Assembly (NCBI GenBank): GCA_020831485.1
Contig: JAFIGG010000012.1
Coordinates: 1 to 61,252, forward strand
Length of the DNA: 61,252 nt
Origin: Opitutales bacterium
Lineage (GTDB): Bacteria; Verrucomicrobiota; Verrucomicrobiia; Opitutales; Oceanipulchritudinaceae
Direction: 5' to 3'
Positions 14,917-26,684 of the stretch are shown here, piece by piece (within the stretch, counting starts at the first letter, position 1; each line of letters opens with the position of its first letter). The notes beneath the pieces were generated by a model that saw nothing but the letters and a program-made list of their open reading frames with translations, was not told where the DNA came from and searched no databases. The translations under genes were made by a program, and so were the position numbers.

Positions 14917-15915
14917 ATGTCTGACTCCTTTAATCTCGAATCCATCAACAGCCGGGTGCGCGAATCCGCGGCCTGGGTGAAAACGCTGCGCGATGAAACC
15001 GCCAAGGTCATCGTCGGGCAGAAGTATCTAATCGACCGCCTGCTGGTCGGTCTACTGGCCAACGGCCACGTCCTCCTCGAAGGCGTTCCGGGGCTGGCAA
15101 AGACACTATCGGTCCGGACACTGGCCGATTGTATAAAAGCCGACTTCTCACGCATTCAGTTCACGCCGGACCTGCTCCCGGCAGACATCGTGGGCACGCT
15201 GATATACAATCCGAAAACCGGTGAATTCACCACAAAACAGGGTCCGGTCTTCGCCAATATTGTGCTGGCAGACGAAATTAACCGGGCTCCGGCGAAAGTC
15301 CAGAGTGCCCTGCTGGAGGCGATGCAGGAGCGTCAGGTGACCATAGGCGACTCCACCTTCAAACTGCCGCAACCCTTTCTGGTTCTAGCCACCGAGAATC
15401 CGATCGACCAGGAGGGCACTTATGCTCTCCCCGAAGCTCAGGTCGACCGTTTCATGCTCAAGCTGAATGTCGGCTATCCGAGCAAGGAGGAAGAGCGGGC
15501 CATTCTCGACCGCATGGCGACCACCGGAGCCCAGCCAACGGTCTCGGCCGTGATCTCTCCGGAAGAAATCCTGGAGGCCCGCAAACTGGTGAACGAAATC
15601 TACATCGACCCGAAGATCCGCGACTACATTGTCGAAGTGGTCTTTGCGACCCGTTATCCGGATCGCTACGGCATGGAGGACCTGAAAAACTTTATTCAGT
15701 TCGGCGGCAGTCCGCGGGCGACCATTTCCTTGACCCTGGCGGCCAAAGCCTGGGCCTTCCTGCAGGGGCGTGGCTATGTCACTCCACAGGATGTTAAGAC
15801 CATCGGAGCGGACGTATTGCGTCACCGTGTGATCCTGACCTACGAGGCCGAAGCTGAAGAGCTGAGCAGTGAAGACCTGATCAGCCGGATTTTCGACACC
15901 ATCCCTGTCCCTTGA
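14917..15915 (+). CDS. MoxR-family AAA+ ATPase
   Basis: This chaperone-like ATPase (332 aa) is the first gene of the Bat operon. Walker A is GVPGLAKT and Walker B is VLADEINRAP. The QSALLEAMQE and ATENPIDQEGTY blocks (sensor 1) that mark MoxR proteins are clear. Family members act with vWA-domain partners in maturation of envelope or metal-containing complexes. An upstream in-frame extension to 14641 has no family likeness, whereas MSDSFNLESIN gives a normal N-terminus. The DUF58 gene follows after 28 bp. Confidence 0.93.
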   Translation: MSDSFNLESINSRVRESAAWVKTLRDETAKVIVGQKYLIDRLLVGLLANGHVLLEGVPGLAKTLSVRTLADCIKADFSRIQFTPDLLPADIVGTLIYNPKTGEFTTKQGPVFANIVLADEINRAPAKVQSALLEAMQERQVTIGDSTFKLPQPFLVLATENPIDQEGTYALPEAQVDRFMLKLNVGYPSKEEERAILDRMATTGAQPTVSAVISPEEILEARKLVNEIYIDPKIRDYIVEVVFATRYPDRYGMEDLKNFIQFGGSPRATISLTLAAKAWAFLQGRGYVTPQDVKTIGADVLRHRVILTYEAEAEELSSEDLISRIFDTIPVP

Positions 15916-15943: not shown

Positions 15944-16876
15944 ATGACAGAAGCAGAAAAAACGCGGGCCATTCTTAAAAAAGTCCGGCAAGTCGAAATT
16001 CGTAGCCGGAAGTTTGTCGATGACACCCTGGTGGGTGCCTATCACAGCATCTTCAAGGGAGCCGGAATCGACTTTGCCGAAGTGCGCGAATATCAGGCGG
16101 GCGACGATGTGCGTTCGATCGATTGGAACGTCACTGCGCGCATGGACCGCCCCTTCCTCAAGACCTATCAGGAAGAGCGCGAACTGACCCTGATGTTGAT
16201 GGTCGATCTCTCCGCCAGTGGTGATTTCGGCTCCCAGAATCAGAGCAAGCGCGAACTCGCCGCAGAGGTTGCCTGCGTTCTCGCCTTTTCAGCGACCCGC
16301 AACAACGACAAGGTCGGCCTCCTGCTCTTCACCGATGAAGTCGAACTTTACATCGCACCAAAAAAAGGCCGCAAACACGTGCTGCGGGTGATCCGGGAGA
16401 TTCTGTTCTTTGAGCCCGAAGGCAAAAAAACGAACATCCCCAATGCCCTGCGCAGACTCAATCGCTTGCAAAAGCGCAAGGCCATCTGTTTTCTGTTCAG
16501 CGATTTCCTTACCGACGAATCCCTTTCATGGATTCGTCCCTCCTCGGTCGATACCAAAGGCGAGTTGCAGCGCATGCTGCGTCTGACCCACCAACGCCAT
16601 GATCTGATCTGCATCGAACTAACAGATCCGCGCGAACAGGCACTTCCTGATGTGGGGATTATAACTCTGGAGGACGCAGAAAGCGGTGAGCTGATCGAAG
16701 TGAATACTTCCAACCGGCGCTTCCGGGACCTCTACGCATTCCAGAACAAACAGCGCATGGAGTTGTTTGCCAAGGAATTGAAACGGAGTGGTATCGACCA
16801 TCTGCTGCTGACGACGGAAGGCTCTTACGTAAAGGAGCTGCGCAGTTTCTTTAACCGAAGGGTGCAGCGTCGATGA
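15944..16876 (+). CDS. DUF58 domain protein
   Basis: This 310-aa protein shows the DUF58 signature EVREYQAGDDVRSIDWNVTARMDRPFLKTYQEERE. After it comes a degenerate von Willebrand A-like domain beginning LMVDLSASGDFG. DUF58 proteins almost always sit directly behind MoxR, and the pair is thought to work together with the Bat vWA proteins. It has no membrane segments and is probably cytoplasmic. The stop overlaps the next start by 4 bp (ATGA at 16873). Confidence 0.92.
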   Translation: MTEAEKTRAILKKVRQVEIRSRKFVDDTLVGAYHSIFKGAGIDFAEVREYQAGDDVRSIDWNVTARMDRPFLKTYQEERELTLMLMVDLSASGDFGSQNQSKRELAAEVACVLAFSATRNNDKVGLLLFTDEVELYIAPKKGRKHVLRVIREILFFEPEGKKTNIPNALRRLNRLQKRKAICFLFSDFLTDESLSWIRPSSVDTKGELQRMLRLTHQRHDLICIELTDPREQALPDVGIITLEDAESGELIEVNTSNRRFRDLYAFQNKQRMELFAKELKRSGIDHLLLTTEGSYVKELRSFFNRRVQRR

Positions 16877-17418
16877 ATACGGCAATGGATGCTCAATTAT
16901 TTTTGCTGGAAAGCGGTTTCTCGGACATCCGCGATGTCATCCGCTTCGCATCGCCCTGGCCATGGTTGATAACCGCAGCTCTGGCACTCGCTTTCATCCT
17001 GTTTTATTGGGGCTGGAAACGTTACCAATTCCGCCAGGCTGAAATCCGAGCCGCCTACCGCGAACCGCCGCATCAGGTGGCTGAACGGGAGCTTGAAGCT
17101 CTGCGCAAGGAAGGTCCAAGCCTTGAGTCGGAAATGTTCAGTGTTCGCGTATCGCGGGTATTGCGTCACTACCTTGAAGACGCCCTGAGCTTGCCGGCCC
17201 CCGAACGCACCACTGAAGAGTTTTTGAATGAACTGAGCGACAAGAACAGCTTCGACGACGACCTTAGAGAGCGACTGTCGAGTTTCCTGCAGCAGAACGA
17301 TCTGGTTAAATTCGCACGGCAGGACCTGAATACGGAACAACGCTCAGAATTGTTGGACAGTGCGCTGCGCGTCATCCGCGCCACTGTTTCGCAAAAGGAA
17401 TCCGCCGGAACCTCATGA
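16873..17418 (+). CDS. DUF4381-like single-pass membrane protein of the Bat operon
   Basis: This is a small protein (181 aa). It has one membrane helix at about residues 29-49 (WPWLITAALALAFILFYWGW), a charged coiled-coil-like segment, and a conserved region RVSRVLRHYLEDALSLPAPERTTEEFL. Genes of this kind (DUF4381 type) occupy this position between DUF58 and BatA in many aerotolerance operons; the biochemical role is unknown. It overlaps both neighbours by 4 bp, which implies tight translational coupling. Confidence 0.8.
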   Translation: MNTAMDAQLFLLESGFSDIRDVIRFASPWPWLITAALALAFILFYWGWKRYQFRQAEIRAAYREPPHQVAERELEALRKEGPSLESEMFSVRVSRVLRHYLEDALSLPAPERTTEEFLNELSDKNSFDDDLRERLSSFLQQNDLVKFARQDLNTEQRSELLDSALRVIRATVSQKESAGTS

Positions 17419-18443
17419 TCTTTCAATTTGCTCAACCATTATTCCTCTGGCTACTGCTGCTCGTGCCGCTGATCGCCTACCTGTCCGGCAGCGCCGGACG
17501 CAAGGCTGCACTGCGCTTTCCCGCCACCCAGCTGGCGCAGCAGATAGCGCGCATGGTCAAGGCCCATCCGGGCAAGTTTCAGGGCTGGCTACGACTGATC
17601 GCACTCACTGCTGGAATCCTCGCCCTGGCCCAGCCGCAGTGGGGTCAGGAAGAAATTCGCGAGGAGTATGAGAGCATCGACATCATGTTGACAGTCGATC
17701 TTTCCAGCTCGATGTGGGCACATGATTTTTTCGTGGATGGGCAAAGAACGGATCGCCTGACTGCGGTGCAAAGCGTCATGAACGAATTTGTCGAAGCGCG
17801 TACTAATGACCGCATCGGTCTGATCGCGTTTGCCGGAGCCTCATATCTGGTCAGCCCGCTGACCATCAACCACGACTGGATCATCCGTCGCCTGAATGAG
17901 CTGGAGATCGGCTCCATTGAAGACGGCACTGCGATCGGCACCGCCATCGGTACTGCGGTCAATCGAATCCGCAACAGCGATGAAAGCGACAAGGTCATTA
18001 TTCTGCTGACAGACGGTGCCAATAACCGCGGTCAGGTCACGCCCATGCAGGCGGCCGAGGCGGCTGCCCGGTTCGGCATCCGCGTCTACACCGTTGGCGT
18101 CGGCCAAAGTCAGCCTGCACCCTTCCCTCGCCTCGATCCGGAAACCCGTCGACCAATGCGCGACCGTGCCGGCAATATGATGTTTGGCACCGCGCCTCCG
18201 GACATCGACCTGGAACTCCTGCAGGCCATCGCGGACCACACCGGCGGCCGCTTTTTCAATGCTGAAAACGCAGACGAACTTCAGGAAATATACACAGAAA
18301 TCGACGCCCTGGAAAAACAGAACATCGAAGTGATCCGCACTGCCCTGTTCCGTGACTGGTTTGGCATTCCACTGATTATTTGTTTATTCGCCTATTTCCT
18401 GGACTGGCTTCTGCGAACCACCCGCTTTCGCCGCATTCCCTAA
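17415..18443 (+). CDS. batA: BatA-type vWA membrane protein
   Basis: This aerotolerance-type protein (342 aa) has N-terminal hydrophobic helices (about 8-24 and 58-75), a von Willebrand A domain (about 90-290) and a C-terminal helix (about 315-332). The metal-ion-dependent adhesion site is intact: DLSSSM supplies DxSxS, with the downstream T and D in GSIEDGTAIG and LLTDGANN. The vWA domain should lie outside the cytoplasmic membrane and bind partner proteins in the Bat complex. It overlaps the preceding gene by 4 bp and precedes the BatB/C fusion by 3 bp. Confidence 0.9.
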   Translation: MIFQFAQPLFLWLLLLVPLIAYLSGSAGRKAALRFPATQLAQQIARMVKAHPGKFQGWLRLIALTAGILALAQPQWGQEEIREEYESIDIMLTVDLSSSMWAHDFFVDGQRTDRLTAVQSVMNEFVEARTNDRIGLIAFAGASYLVSPLTINHDWIIRRLNELEIGSIEDGTAIGTAIGTAVNRIRNSDESDKVIILLTDGANNRGQVTPMQAAEAAARFGIRVYTVGVGQSQPAPFPRLDPETRRPMRDRAGNMMFGTAPPDIDLELLQAIADHTGGRFFNAENADELQEIYTEIDALEKQNIEVIRTALFRDWFGIPLIICLFAYFLDWLLRTTRFRRIP

Positions 18444-18446
18444 ACC

Positions 18447-21140
18447 ATGACTTTCGCGCAACCCATATGGCTTTACCTGCTCGCCGTGCTACTTCCACTC
18501 GGTATTGCACTGGTATGGTGGACCGAATCCCGCTCGCAGCGCCTACTGTCCAAATTCGCCGCCAGTAAACTGATTGGTCGCCTGTCGGACTCCTTCAGTC
18601 CGGGCCGGCACCGGGCTAAACTGATTTTATCAGGACTGGCTCTGACCGCGCTCATCGTAGCCCTCGCCCGCCCGCAATACGGCAGCGAGCAGGTCGAGCA
18701 TGAGCTTCAGGGCACCGACATCCTGTTTGCAATCGACACATCGCGCAGCATGCTCGCCGAAGACTATGCTCCCAATCGGCTCGAGCGTTCGAAGCTTGCA
18801 ATCATCGACCTTTTGGAGGGCCTGTCCGGGGATCGGGTCGGCCTGATCGCATTCGCGGGGGATGCCTACCTGCAGGTTCCCTTAACCAATGATTACGATA
18901 GCTTTTTACGGACGCTGAACGCCATGGACACCAATGTCATCCCGCGCGGAGGCACAGATATTTCAGCGGCAATCGACGAGGCACTCGCCTACTATGCCAA
19001 TGATGAGCATCAGCGTGTGCTTGTATTGATCAGCGATGGCGAAGACCTCGCCGCAGAAGGCCTTGTCAAAGCCCGCGAAGCTGGCGCCCGGGGTGTCACT
19101 ATTTTCACTGTTGGGGTTGGCAGCGCAGAGGGCGAATTGATTCCTATCCGCGGACCCGATGGGCGAATGGATTATGTGCGGGGCCCAGATGGAAGCCCTG
19201 TGCGCACCCGCCTTGACGAATCAACCCTGACCGCTATCGCAGAATCAACGGGTGGTCGCTACATTCATCTGGGTGCTGCCGGCATTGATTCCATTCTGGA
19301 TGACATTCGGGATGCGGCCGGGGAAGAGCAGTATGGCGTGCGGGTGCAGACCATACCCATCGAGCGCTATCACTGGCCATTGCTGTTTGCTTTGATCCTG
19401 ATTGTAATTGAAGTCTGTCTGGGCAACCGCAGGCGCCAGCGGAAGACAGCGGGTTCCCTAGCCGCCCTGCCACTGGTGTTGACCTTCGGTATTCTGGCGA
19501 CCACTCCGTCCTATGTTGAAGCCGGCAATCCGCGGGCGGCGCAAAGCCTCTACGACCGCGGAGAGCATGAAGCGGCCGCCGATCTATACCGGCAGCTTAT
19601 CGAAGCAGAACCCCAGGACGCCCGCCTTCACTACAACCTCGGCAACAGCCTTTATCGTCAGAGGGATTTCGCGGGAGCCATCGACGCCTACAAGCAGGCC
19701 CTTCCGCTGGCAGACGTCGGCCTCCAGGAACGTATCTTTTTCAACCTCGGCAACGCCCGTTATCAGTTAGGTACCGTTCTATTGGAAGAGCGTCCGGAAA
19801 GAACCACTGAGCTTTGGGACGAAGCCGTGCGCGACTACGACAATGCCCTGGAAATCGCCCCCGACGCCGCCGATACACGCGGCAACCGCTCCTGGGTAGA
19901 GCAGCAGTTCGACTATCACTCCGCTCGGGTTCGCGTCAGCGCGGTACCACCTGAGGGCGGTTCAGCCGGCAGCGGCGGACGATTTCTGCCGGGAATCGCC
20001 ATAGAGCTCGAAGCGGAGCCTGAAGAACACTGGCGCTTCGTTGAATGGAGCGGCATTGAACTGGAGGATCCCGAAAGGGCTCGACAGACTTGGACAGTCG
20101 ACCGCGACGCTGACATTCAGGCGCGCTTCATCCGCACATGGCAACTGGAGGTTGCCGTGGATGATCCCGAGCGCGGAAGTGCCGGAACATCCGGACGCTT
20201 TGACGACCGTAGTCAGACCGAGATCACTGCAGAAGCCGAGGACTATTATGTGTTCTCCCGTTGGATCAGCGACGACCTCGAAATCGCCGATCCGTTTGCC
20301 GCCGAAACCCAAGTACACATGACACGCGATGGAACCGTGACCGCGAGTTTTGCCGAAGCTTACAAGTTGACCGTTGGCAGCGAACCAGCTATCGCCGGCA
20401 ATGTCGGCCATACCGGTTTCTACGAAGTTGACACCGATGTGCCCATTCAGGCCGAACCAAGGGATGGCTTCGAATGGCAGCGTTGGCGCGGTGAAGACAT
20501 TGAAGACTTTCTCCAGCCTCAGACCCAGGTGCTGCTGGACCGCGACAAGACCGTGACCGCTGAATTCGAACGCATCTGGAACCTGGTGGTACTGCCGGAC
20601 AGCGATGAGCACGGCAGCACGACCGGTGGAGGTAACTTCTCTATTGGCACGGTGACGCCCATTGAAGCTGTTGCCAACGAAGGTTACACCTTCCAGTATT
20701 GGGACGGCCCCGGCGTAGCCGATCCCGAGTCGGCGCAGACTGAAGCTGAGGTGTTGAGCAATGAGCAGACTCTAATCGCAGTTTTTGAAAGCGACGACGA
20801 ATCGGACGACCCCGAAAGTGATGACCCGGAATCCGACGATCCAGAGTCAGACGAGTCGGAGTCCGATGATCCGGAAAGTGACGACCCAGAGCAAGATCCA
20901 AACGGAGACGATTCGCAGGACCCCGAAAGCGATCCGGAATCGGATCCCGAGCAGGATCCTGAATCCGACGAAGAGCGTGATGAAGACACAGAACGCGAGG
21001 GAGAAAGCCCTCCTGAGCCTGAAACCATGAGCGAAGACGAAGCGGAACAGATACTTCAGACACTGCGCGGCGACGAACGACAACTACCCGTATCGCCCGC
21101 TCGGCCGGATGCGGATCGTCCAGTAGAAAGGGATTGGTGA
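18447..21140 (+). CDS. BatB-BatC fusion with four InlB-type repeats and an acidic linker
   Basis: This 897-aa protein joins several modules. Residues 1-325 form a BatB protein: two N-terminal helices, a vWA domain with DTSRSM and LISDGED, and a helix at about 308-325. A hydrophobic stretch at about 336-355, like a BatC signal peptide, is followed by TPR repeats (about 365-475). Four copies of a roughly 70-residue repeat (about 493-772) follow, each with a GSAG/GG start, an AEP..Y.F..W centre and an end like VTAxF; these resemble divergent InlB/Flg_new_2 repeats. Then comes a linker of ESDDPESDD type (about 776-865). The tail SEDEAEQILQTLRGDE matches the usual BatC C-terminus, so the repeats and linker appear inserted before it. 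It is followed by BatD after 22 bp. Confidence 0.88.
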   Translation: MTFAQPIWLYLLAVLLPLGIALVWWTESRSQRLLSKFAASKLIGRLSDSFSPGRHRAKLILSGLALTALIVALARPQYGSEQVEHELQGTDILFAIDTSRSMLAEDYAPNRLERSKLAIIDLLEGLSGDRVGLIAFAGDAYLQVPLTNDYDSFLRTLNAMDTNVIPRGGTDISAAIDEALAYYANDEHQRVLVLISDGEDLAAEGLVKAREAGARGVTIFTVGVGSAEGELIPIRGPDGRMDYVRGPDGSPVRTRLDESTLTAIAESTGGRYIHLGAAGIDSILDDIRDAAGEEQYGVRVQTIPIERYHWPLLFALILIVIEVCLGNRRRQRKTAGSLAALPLVLTFGILATTPSYVEAGNPRAAQSLYDRGEHEAAADLYRQLIEAEPQDARLHYNLGNSLYRQRDFAGAIDAYKQALPLADVGLQERIFFNLGNARYQLGTVLLEERPERTTELWDEAVRDYDNALEIAPDAADTRGNRSWVEQQFDYHSARVRVSAVPPEGGSAGSGGRFLPGIAIELEAEPEEHWRFVEWSGIELEDPERARQTWTVDRDADIQARFIRTWQLEVAVDDPERGSAGTSGRFDDRSQTEITAEAEDYYVFSRWISDDLEIADPFAAETQVHMTRDGTVTASFAEAYKLTVGSEPAIAGNVGHTGFYEVDTDVPIQAEPRDGFEWQRWRGEDIEDFLQPQTQVLLDRDKTVTAEFERIWNLVVLPDSDEHGSTTGGGNFSIGTVTPIEAVANEGYTFQYWDGPGVADPESAQTEAEVLSNEQTLIAVFESDDESDDPESDDPESDDPESDESESDDPESDDPEQDPNGDDSQDPESDPESDPEQDPESDEERDEDTEREGESPPEPETMSEDEAEQILQTLRGDERQLPVSPARPDADRPVERDW
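20785..20985 (+). repeat. Coding repeat for acidic ESDDPESDD linker
   Basis: Degenerate 12-15 bp units coding for E/D-S-D-D-P run through this stretch of the BatB/C fusion gene. Codons vary between units (GAC/GAT, AGT/TCC/TCG/AGC), which means selection on the peptide rather than recent DNA slippage. The linker would be strongly negative and unstructured. Confidence 0.7.
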
Positions 21141-21162
21141 TTGTATGAACAAAGGGATTTGT

Positions 21163-22896
21163 ATGCGAATTCACTGGATTCTATGGATGGGCCTGCTCGC
21201 CTTGACCGGCACGAGCAACCTCAATGCGAATGTATCGGTAAGCGCTTCCATCGAGCGCTCAACCATGAGTGTTGGTGAAACCAACTACTACACCTTGACG
21301 ATCCGCAATGCATCAGCCAGCCCTGATATCGACCCGCCTCAAGCTGATGGACTGCAGTTTCGACCAAACCGACAGGTCCACACTTCGACGCAGATCATCA
21401 ACAATCGGCTGACATCGGAAATTAGACTCTCCTGGCCTTTTCAGGCTTCCAGAACCGGACGGTTCGAAGTTCCCGGACGCACTATAACCATCGACGGAGA
21501 ATCCTATACGATCAATTCTGTTTCCGTTCGGGTCAGCGAAATGCCGGAGGAAATGCGCAACCGATTTTTCATGCGCTGGCAACTCGAGCCAGGCCCTTGG
21601 TTTGTTGGCCAGAATATTGAAGCGTCGCTCAAGCTCTATGTCAGGCCGGACATCAATGCCCGCCGGGCCGGCCAACTGAGCAGTTCGGTCGAAGGCATTG
21701 TGCAACCCAACCTGAATGTCCAGGGGCGGCAGTTTCGCGAAAATGTCGACGGCACCAATTACATTGTCATCGCTTGGGACACGCTGGTCACACCGATTCG
21801 TGCCGGAGAAGTCAGCATCAATACCCAGTTGCCACTTGTATACGAAACAGGGCGTGTGCAGCGGGATTTCTGGGGCGCCCGGCCCATTCAGGAAGAAGTC
21901 ATTCTTTCGACTCCTGATGCCAACTGGGTGGTAAGAGAGCTGCCGCGATCGAGCCGTCCTCAAAGCTTCTCCGGAGCCATTGGAGATTTTGATGTCCACA
22001 CCCGTTTATCCTCGGACGAGGTGCGCCAGGGAGATCCCATCACCCTGACCCTTCAACTGCAAGGGAGAGGCAACCTCGACCGCATCGATGCGCCCGCCTT
22101 TCCCGAATCCAGTGCCTGGCGTGTCTACCCTCCCCGGACTGATGTCTCATTCATTGAGGATTCGAAGGTCGAGGGACTCGTCGAAATCGAATACATACTT
22201 TCAGCCCGCCAATCCGGAGATATTGAGATTCCGGAAATGGAATTTTCCTGGTTTAATCCCAAGGAGCAGGAATACAAGAAGCATCAGGTTCCTGCGCAAA
22301 CGGTGCGGGTATTGCCCGATCCTTCTACCGGCCAGGCAGCTGTTCGCCCAACCTCACCCGAAGCACTTCAGGTCGATTCAGAGCTGCGCCCACTTGCAAC
22401 GCGTATGGGCTCCAGCGGCAACCTTCAACCCGTCTGGCATCAGCCAATCTTCTGGACCAGCCAAGCCGGCTCAGCCATAGCGCTGGCCATCCTTGTCGGA
22501 GTGCTGCAACGTCGGCGCCAGATCAGCGCCGATCCGCTTGCCCGGGCCCGCCGTGCGGCCCATCAGCAATCCCGTAAGCTTGCAACAGCGGCAAAGCAAG
22601 CGGCCCAGGCCAGTGATGCCCTCGCATTCTACAGTCAAGCCTGTCTTGCCATTGCCAACCAGATGGCTGGCTTGGATCCGGTCAACATTCGCGCCGAGAG
22701 CGTTAGCGCCGATCAATTGGAACGCATAGGAGAATCGCAGGGGCTTTCCTCTGAAACGATCACAAAGCTGCAAAAGCTTTTCGACCGCAAGGATTCGGCC
22801 CAATTTGCAGGCTGGAAACCGGGGCCTGATGTATTGGAAAACGATCTTAAGGAACTTCAAGCCAGCCTTCGTGACATTTCAGAAAGGAACGCATGA
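21163..22896 (+). CDS. batD: BatD-type oxygen tolerance protein
   Basis: This secreted, membrane-anchored protein has about 577 aa. It has a signal peptide (MRIHWILWMGLLALTGTSNLNA), several beta-rich domains, one membrane helix at about residues 435-455 and a helical cytoplasmic tail. The N-terminal ASIERSTMSVGETNYYTLTI is typical of BatD. The ATG at 21145 is also in frame, but AAAGGG lies 6 nt before the ATG at 21163 and that start gives the cleaner signal peptide. The stop overlaps BatE by 4 bp. Confidence 0.85.
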   Translation: MRIHWILWMGLLALTGTSNLNANVSVSASIERSTMSVGETNYYTLTIRNASASPDIDPPQADGLQFRPNRQVHTSTQIINNRLTSEIRLSWPFQASRTGRFEVPGRTITIDGESYTINSVSVRVSEMPEEMRNRFFMRWQLEPGPWFVGQNIEASLKLYVRPDINARRAGQLSSSVEGIVQPNLNVQGRQFRENVDGTNYIVIAWDTLVTPIRAGEVSINTQLPLVYETGRVQRDFWGARPIQEEVILSTPDANWVVRELPRSSRPQSFSGAIGDFDVHTRLSSDEVRQGDPITLTLQLQGRGNLDRIDAPAFPESSAWRVYPPRTDVSFIEDSKVEGLVEIEYILSARQSGDIEIPEMEFSWFNPKEQEYKKHQVPAQTVRVLPDPSTGQAAVRPTSPEALQVDSELRPLATRMGSSGNLQPVWHQPIFWTSQAGSAIALAILVGVLQRRRQISADPLARARRAAHQQSRKLATAAKQAAQASDALAFYSQACLAIANQMAGLDPVNIRAESVSADQLERIGESQGLSSETITKLQKLFDRKDSAQFAGWKPGPDVLENDLKELQASLRDISERNA

Positions 22897-23642
22897 AACA
22901 ATTGCTCTGCCTGTTCACCACCTTTGTTGTATTCACCGCCGTTGCCGCTGCTGACACTGAAAGCCGTTTCATTGACGGCACCATAGAACTCTCGGAGGGC
23001 AATTATGAAAATGCGGTTGAGGTGTTCGAGTCACTTGCCGCCGAGCATCCGAGCGCACAGGTCTACTACAATCTTGCACTGGCCCAGCAGCAATTGGAAG
23101 CCTGGGGGAGCGCCCGCCTCAACTATGAGCGGGCACTTGTCCTGGATCCACGCAACCGTGAGGCTCAACACAATCTAAACCATCTGCTGGCCAGTCTTGG
23201 ACTTGAGTCGGACAGTATGGGGAGCTTGGAGCAGCTTGGAGCCTACCTGAGCCTGAATAGCTGGACCTGGATAGCGGGCGTCGCTTTCTGGCTATGGCTT
23301 TTTCTGCGGATTCTGGACCATTACGACCGCTACCAGCATTGGAGCGCAACCCTCTTTCGTCTGCTGGCGATTCTGGTTTTTGCCAGCGCCTGTACTTTTG
23401 CTTTTCTACAGCGGCACAGTGTTGACAAAGCCATCATACTCGATGGCGAAAGCCAGTTACGCGTGGCTCCGACTCGGGAGAGCCCTCTGCTCCGTGACTT
23501 GATTGAAGCAGATAAAGTCCGTATCCTTGCTGAGCACGGATCCTTTTACCGGATCCGCCTCAGCAATGGTGACGAAGGATTTGTTATCAACTCTGCAATC
23601 GCACCGATTATTCCGGCTTTGATATCCGAAAATCGTCAATGA
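22893..23642 (+). CDS. batE: BatE-type TPR and SH3-like protein
   Basis: The protein has 249 aa. After a signal peptide (about 1-20) come two TPR units (about 25-105), two membrane helices (about 127-147 and 155-175) and a C-terminal SH3-like domain (about 180-240, with LRVAPTRESPLL and GFVINSAI). This TPR-TM-TM-SH3 order is the BatE layout. It is the last gene of the operon. Its 3' end overlaps the convergent phosphatase gene by 35 bp. Confidence 0.85.
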   Translation: MKQLLCLFTTFVVFTAVAAADTESRFIDGTIELSEGNYENAVEVFESLAAEHPSAQVYYNLALAQQQLEAWGSARLNYERALVLDPRNREAQHNLNHLLASLGLESDSMGSLEQLGAYLSLNSWTWIAGVAFWLWLFLRILDHYDRYQHWSATLFRLLAILVFASACTFAFLQRHSVDKAIILDGESQLRVAPTRESPLLRDLIEADKVRILAEHGSFYRIRLSNGDEGFVINSAIAPIIPALISENRQ

Positions 23643-25958: not shown

Positions 25959-26684
25959 ATGTCTCAAAACAGCAAAAAAATCGAGTGGTGCAAAGTCCGT
26001 CTAGGCGACGATTCCAACTGGTGGGTAACCGAAGTTTCGGACCCAATTCACTGGGATGTGGACGGTTTGGGCATCATTGATCCCCGCCAGATGAGTTACA
26101 TTCTGGAACAATGTGACGCATTGCGCGAATATGGATTGGATGCCGATATGGTCGACGAGGCCTTCTTCACTATGGCAATCGATGCGGAAGCAGAGGAAGA
26201 ACAGGTTCGCCTGCTGCGCACCCAGGATTCATTGCTTGAAGACAACGCAACTTTCTTCGGCCTGCCGGATATTATTGACGAGGAAAAAGGTCCATTCGCA
26301 GACTTCCTGGACCATATCACTAAAGCCCGGGTGAAGTTGCTGAACGACCTCATCGAGTTCGACCAAAACCTGACCGTTGACGAGCTTGAGGAGGAAATCC
26401 GCGAGCGCATGAATCAGGATTACATGGAGGGCAAGGCCGTGCACCCTTTCACCGAGATCAGCGCCATTCTCGACTATGTGCCGGACGGCTACGAACTCGA
26501 CGACGATGAGCGCGGCGACAGCGACGACGACGAGATCGACGACATTCCCGACTTCGAAGAGGAAACTGAGACCATCGAAGAAGACGAGACAATGAAGTGG
26601 GACGACGACGAGGACGAGGAAGAGACAGAGGACGAAGAGTCTGAAGAAAGTAGCGACGACGAGGACGAGGACGATCGCCCTTAA
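25959..26684 (+). CDS. Unrecognised protein with a strongly acidic tail
   Basis: This 241-aa protein has no signal peptide or membrane helix, and I do not recognise the family. The first about 175 residues look folded (WCKVRLGDDSNWWVTEV, RQMSYILEQCDALREYG, and a helical TKARVKLLNDLIEF segment). From about 180 to the end nearly every residue is D or E with a few S and T. Such tails can act as nucleic-acid mimics or chaperone-like extensions, but that is speculation. The stop overlaps the convergent BASS transporter gene by 4 bp. Confidence 0.75.
   Translation: MSQNSKKIEWCKVRLGDDSNWWVTEVSDPIHWDVDGLGIIDPRQMSYILEQCDALREYGLDADMVDEAFFTMAIDAEAEEEQVRLLRTQDSLLEDNATFFGLPDIIDEEKGPFADFLDHITKARVKLLNDLIEFDQNLTVDELEEEIRERMNQDYMEGKAVHPFTEISAILDYVPDGYELDDDERGDSDDDEIDDIPDFEEETETIEEDETMKWDDDEDEEETEDEESEESSDDEDEDDRP

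Follow-up and report, generated by a model that had tools for sequence, protein, structure and literature searches.

The genes for BatB and BatC are joined in one open frame of 897 amino acids in the stretch of Opitutales DNA analysed here (the window, 61,252 nucleotides), and between the TPR domain and the conserved tail of the BatC half lies an array of InlB-type repeats. Comparison between species indicates that this array is old and under constraint, and that the number of its position-specific repeats is mostly fixed at four. It is the repeat insert and not the fusion that is unusual, and the insert appears to be new, as far as we are aware. We give an even chance to the reading that the gene encodes a BatB-BatC polyprotein with a probable cut after A359, releasing a rod-bearing BatC that would act as a spacer arm in a MoxR-driven Bat complex.

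The Bat complex is widespread, and we know of no established function for it. The fused gene sits in a complete MoxR-DUF58-DUF4381-BatA-BatBC-BatD-BatE operon (Table 1), in which the MoxR and DUF58 genes lie upstream of paired VWA membrane proteins and whose gene order is kept in relatives. The BatB half has the two-helix N-terminus, a VWA domain with a MIDAS motif and a C-terminal TM helix, the BatC half has a TPR domain, an export signal and the tail, and BatD and BatE follow downstream. Just past the operon, at 25959-26684 on the forward strand, is a gene for a 241-amino-acid protein with a long D/E-rich C-terminal tail and a net charge of about -67. A literature search on Verrucomicrobia Bat loci returned nothing usable. 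A role for Bat proteins in tolerance of oxygen or oxidative stress is doubtful even in Leptospira (PMC3557215). MoxR-VWA pairs such as NorQ/NorD are known to act on membrane clients (PMC9976466), a precedent that would fit a chaperone-like Bat complex.

Table 1. Genes of the Bat operon and domains of the fused BatB-BatC protein, in window coordinates
Feature	Position	Strand	Basis
MoxR AAA+ ATPase, first gene of the operon	14932..15915	+	Pfam AAA_3 E 1e-65, AAA_lid_2
DUF58 / VWA protein	15944..16876	+	Pfam DUF58 E 1e-80
DUF4381-like membrane protein	16873..17418	+	Pfam DUF4381 E 1e-4, under curated cut-off; equal place in relatives
BatA (TM-TM-VWA-TM)	17415..18443	+	Pfam BatA, VWA; NCBIfam BatA_Lepto E 5e-54, under its cut-off
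BatB-BatC fused gene, 897 aa, net charge -103	18447..21140	+	ORF, Pfam
BatB two-helix N-terminal anchor, aa 1-76	18447..18674	+	Pfam BatA N-terminal domain; AF2 helices 7-37, 52-73
Periplasmic VWA domain, aa 88-293, MIDAS D97-x-S99-x-S101	18708..19325	+	Pfam VWA 91-228; 3ibs match
BatB third TM helix, about aa 309-326, then NRRRQRK loop	19371..19424	+	AF2 helix 310-324; sequence
Internal BatC signal peptide, aa 327-359, predicted cut after A359	19425..19523	+	n-, h- and c-region anatomy
BatC TPR domain, aa 362-491	19530..19919	+	Pfam TPRs 364-422 and on; AF2 pLDDT ~95; TPR folds Z up to 19
InlB/Flg_new_2 repeat R1, aa 493-562	19923..20132	+	Pfam, genome search, AF2
InlB/Flg_new_2 repeat R2, aa 563-637	20133..20357	+	Pfam, genome search, AF2
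InlB/Flg_new_2 repeat R3, aa 638-709; gene split site in family f8	20358..20573	+	Pfam, genome search, AF2
InlB/Flg_new_2 repeat R4, aa 710-783	20574..20795	+	Pfam, genome search, AF2
Acidic disordered linker, aa 784-860	20796..21026	+	pLDDT <50 at 785-860; 53% D/E
Conserved BatC tail, aa 861-897, short helix and C-terminal -RDW	21027..21137	+	AF2 helix 863-874
BatD	21145..22896	+	Pfam BatD E 3e-22
BatE-like TPR-SH3 membrane protein	22893..23642	+	Pfam TPR; SH3_3 just under cut-off; equal place in relatives

The fused frame runs without interruption from its ATG to the stop codon at 21138-21140, and Pfam places the BatA N-terminal domain, VWA and TPR within it. The VWA fold is that of the solved Bacteroides BatB (3ibs, Z 31.2 over 203 residues at 1.4 A; 4jdu was also matched in the structure comparison), and the MIDAS residues are invariant in our alignment A1. 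Domain searches also bore out a sequence-only reading of this DNA, which had seen four InlB-type repeats in the gene: Flg_new_2 (PF18998) matches four times (E 3e-34, 117 bits against a cut-off of 23.6), and each repeat is also found singly over the cut-off in a genome search. The repeats (291 residues) and the acidic linker together account for the roughly 370 residues which that reading had placed between the TPR part and the tail, MSEDEAEQILQTLRGDERQLP...RDW, a C-terminus conserved in BatC of the order. Its placing of the TPR-repeat-tail part outside the cytoplasm agrees with the periplasmic location of the VWA domain shown by experiment for the Borrelia homologue BB0173 (PMC5700661), and with the signal peptide carried by the detached half of a naturally split gene described below.

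The fusion is not an assembly error, as separate assemblies of relatives share the array at the same junction. The same reading took Bat proteins to be usually separate, which is not the case in this order, where BatB and BatC are commonly fused. Across 55 genomes from the family and order, the top BatB match usually fell in a frame of 580-1030 amino acids that also held TPR. Short unfused BatB frames were seen in families f6, f12, f13, f16, f20 and part of f14; a separate BatC was also read in f6, f12 and f16, and the tail motif is common to these BatC proteins. Fusions were also found in other orders and phyla sampled, for example at a Methylacidiphilum locus and an Omnitrophota locus, and BatB-BatC fusion is on record in L. 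biflexa, while bat genes are joined in other ways in Borrelia, Spirochaeta and Francisella (PMC3557215). Cerasicoccus, a relative in culture, likewise has the fusion but no rod. The fusion itself is therefore not the news.

Between the third TM helix and the TPR domain the sequence reads NRRRQRK-TAGSLA-ALPLVLTFGIL-ATTPSYVEA/GNP, where the slash marks the predicted cut. The sequence-only reading took the BatC signal to have become an internal helix, but it keeps an R/K-rich n-region, the core ALPLVLTFGIL and the c-region ATTPSYVEA, and a signal-peptidase-I-like site ([AVSTGLI]-x-A no more than 10 residues from the hydrophobic core) is present in 35 of 36 fused proteins from 20-odd genera, against 21 of 36 expected from composition shuffles. 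Controls for this rule were drawn from the loci of the window and its relatives, and it was satisfied by 27% of 56 internal N-in/C-out helices of polytopic proteins and by 66% of 188 N-terminal signals. In other orders the site was found in 12 of 16 fused proteins with A at -1 (10.6 expected) and in 15 of 16 with A or G. Since both the signal anatomy and the site are kept, cleavage probably still takes place here, in which case the arm would not be covalently attached to BatB; the product would be a soluble or lipid-anchored BatC. We found no paper describing a retained signal-peptidase site in fused Bat proteins.

It is quite possible, nevertheless, that the chain stays whole, with residues 338-359 acting as an additional, fourth TM helix that keeps the TPR-rod-tail arm covalently linked to BatB. 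Most families of the order keep one open frame, the hydrophobic stretch could span the membrane, and its N-in/C-out topology fits. Moreover, the same -3/-1 rule fires at 69% of the TM2 helices of these proteins, where the family motif ALARPQ fits it, and these helices are surely not cut. Set against this are the near-universal site (97%), with its polar, P/G-rich c-region, compared with the much lower frequency in comparable internal helices, and the poor conservation of the junction region otherwise (37-39%). In two fused BatB-BatC proteins of other families the internal segment also holds a lipobox-like cysteine (L197, core AAAVLAVGALL then GCGGK; L193, AAAACAGPS), as if BatC were cut and lipidated there. 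The junction pattern is strong but is not proof of cleavage, and from these sequence features a cut polyprotein yielding BatB and a rod-bearing periplasmic BatC is somewhat more likely than a tethered arm.

The repeat insert has a narrow distribution. Among 372 genomes of the order, a match running from TPR to repeats in one stretch was found only in the window's own family (f1), in one genome of f9 and in f8, and in a phylum sample of 387 genomes only f1 members had the insert. A pattern-based scan of 84,980 species genomes, which missed f8, found VWA, TPR and repeats in one ORF at only nine Opitutales loci. In each of the two large searches only the best-ranking candidates of a genome were scored, so a few exceptions could have been missed. 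In f1 twelve genomes carry the insert: the one from which the window comes and eleven more, G001 included. Over the sampled genomes of the phylum it is present in f1 apart from genus g9, present in f9, split in f8, and was seen nowhere else. Of 12 full-length orthologues without the split, 11 have four repeats and one has three; the genus with three is g2, and genus g9 (L159, L160, L161) has the fusion without repeats and very long Q/E-rich linkers of 284-499 residues, the longest seen. Because g9 lacks the rod and g2 has three repeats, the complex does not strictly need the rod. Isolate names suggest a soda-lake or salt-lake origin for several of the carriers.

Between species, repeats are 0.39 identical at the same position and 0.28-0.29 at different positions, and the nearest neighbour of a repeat occupies the same position in 55 of 66 cases, the mismatches all lying in f8 or f9. 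As the repeats align in register between species, they are not a chance resemblance, and this position-specific orthology also excludes a recent local duplication. In the closest pair compared (genus g3) dN/dS is 0.06 for R1-R4, 0.04 for VWA and 0.10 for TPR; in a more distant pair (g4) the array, at 0.31, again lies between VWA (0.22) and TPR (0.39). Identity is 0.42-0.46 in R2-R4 against 0.35 in TPR, and W and G positions are conserved in the repeats. The variable copy number and fast evolution of a surface-adhesin array were not found here, the copy number being mostly four and dN/dS low in the closest pair. A recent horizontal insertion was considered and set aside, the GC content of the insert (0.585) being the same as that of its flanks. 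Kinship with the other repeats of the same genome was likewise rejected: those resemble each other more, and share no more than about 36% identity with any Bat repeat. In a VWA-TPR tree f1 is unresolved, f8 lies near f3 and f9 near f5, so placed that the insert carriers do not form one clade, although a single clade is not rejected (p-AU 0.25). The insert may have been gained once and then lost in some lineages, or it may have been transferred.

The fused gene of family f8 is broken within R3. Five genomes from two genera show the split (loci L022 in G047, L023 in G023, L162, L163 and L164), one of the genomes being a single contig. Because independent assemblies agree, the fission is real. 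The first ORF stops after the first strand of R3; the start of the second lies 14-17 nt upstream of the end of the ORF1 stop codon, an overlap that is conserved, and this second ORF carries its own signal peptide, R3 resumed just past the first strand, then R4, the linker and a tail ending KDW. In G100, one of the five, the second ORF has a long N-terminus and its start and signal are less clear. This arrangement supports the view that R3, R4 and the tail act outside the cytoplasm. The orphan first strand of R3 is conserved at the end of ORF1, suggesting that the two halves rejoin by strand complementation, which also argues that continuity between TPR and tail matters.

An AF2 model of the protein (pTM 0.65) gives a pLDDT of about 95 for the TPR domain and the repeats and a disordered linker. 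The last TPR helix (475-491) is followed directly by a strand at 493, and at two of the repeat junctions strands (555-571 and 629-646) continue across the boundary, which in the model suggests a stiff stack. By sequence, no solved InlB-type relative of the repeats was found in PDB, and the structure match lists for the repeat fold were filled by TPR and VWA. The CFA/I subunit was discarded as a relative, its match (E 6e-4) spanning only 21 residues. At the other end of the arm a terminal [KR][DN]W recurs through the order in fused and separate BatC alike (21129-21137 in the window), and BatC ends in DW in most complete fused proteins checked from other orders. Matches to HOP and CHIP raised the idea of a carboxylate-clamp TPR holding the -RDW tail, which was dropped as the clamp residue N400 is not conserved in our reading of A1.

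The repeats might instead be a binding module for peptidoglycan, a polysaccharide or a client protein. The same genome does encode related repeats in large proteins that are presumably exposed at the surface, and the strong conservation of R2-R4 and of their W and G positions would suit such a role. We consider it unlikely, however, as no ligand is known, no solved relative was found by sequence, the copy number is fixed and not variable, and both a split within R3 and the loss in g9 are tolerated. That the insert is a neutral passenger from a surface-protein gene is very unlikely: its absence from most families and its loss or reduction in g9 and g2 would fit, but the low dN/dS of the g3 pair, the repeat order kept across genera and families, and its retention after gene fission speak against it. 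Binding of calcium-like ions, which the sequence-only reading had suggested for the arm, is very improbable for the linker or the repeats: the linker is acidic in the window's protein, but that acidity is not conserved, linkers being D/E-rich in some genera and Q/N-rich in others, with a D/E fraction as low as 0.22. Linkers are shorter in insert-bearing proteins (mean 112 against 188 aa, p 0.01, or 0.04 without g9), but these data are phylogenetically confounded and we do not rely on the idea that the rod compensates for linker length.

Under the polyprotein reading, BatB, with its three TM helices and periplasmic VWA domain, would enter the inner membrane first, and the old BatC signal peptide, as the next hydrophobic segment, would go back into the membrane N-in/C-out. 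Signal peptidase I would probably then cut after A359, giving a periplasmic BatC of about 538 amino acids in a fixed 1:1 ratio with BatB. This BatC would form an arm that begins with the TPR domain and continues with four InlB-type domains stacked as a stiff rod, the last strand of one domain being predicted to run on into the first strand of the next; a flexible acidic linker would then lead to the conserved -RDW tail. The most likely role of the rod is that of a spacer, which could keep the tail, and whatever binds it, at a set distance from the membrane-docked TPR domain. With a rod lying between TPR and a conserved tail, and a split of it tolerated, these loci supply naturally occurring variants with which to find out what the tail reaches. 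Should an internal signal indeed be retained, fused Bat genes would have to be annotated differently, as a gene fusion need not be a protein fusion. More generally, we tentatively propose that Bat "fusions" may be signal-peptidase-processed polyproteins supplying equal amounts of a VWA protein and a TPR arm, to which Opitutales would have added an InlB rod that in one family is split and rejoins by beta-strand complementation.

The Bat operon described here resembles the BatA-E operon with MoxR of Bacteroides in its MoxR-DUF58-(DUF4381)-BatA-BatB-BatC-BatD-BatE set and in the VWA fold, but here one gene encodes both BatB and BatC, and the BatC part contains four InlB-type repeats followed by an acidic linker. 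The fused BatB-BatC of L. biflexa and of other Verrucomicrobiota likewise has VWA and TPR in one chain, and the Verrucomicrobiota fusions examined also share a polar linker and a tail usually ending DW; unlike this gene, these fusions are without the repeat array. It resembles the InlB B-repeat (PF18998) proteins through its four repeats over the Pfam cut-off, though elsewhere such repeats occur mostly in large, presumably surface-exposed repeat proteins, whereas here they form a fixed, ordered array in a gene of an inner-membrane complex. For the processing, the closest parallel is the FbcH cytochrome b/c1 polyprotein of Bradyrhizobium, in which a membrane protein and an exported protein are synthesised as a single chain that is cleaved at an internal signal; the proteins are unrelated, and the cleavage shown for FbcH is only predicted for BatB-BatC.
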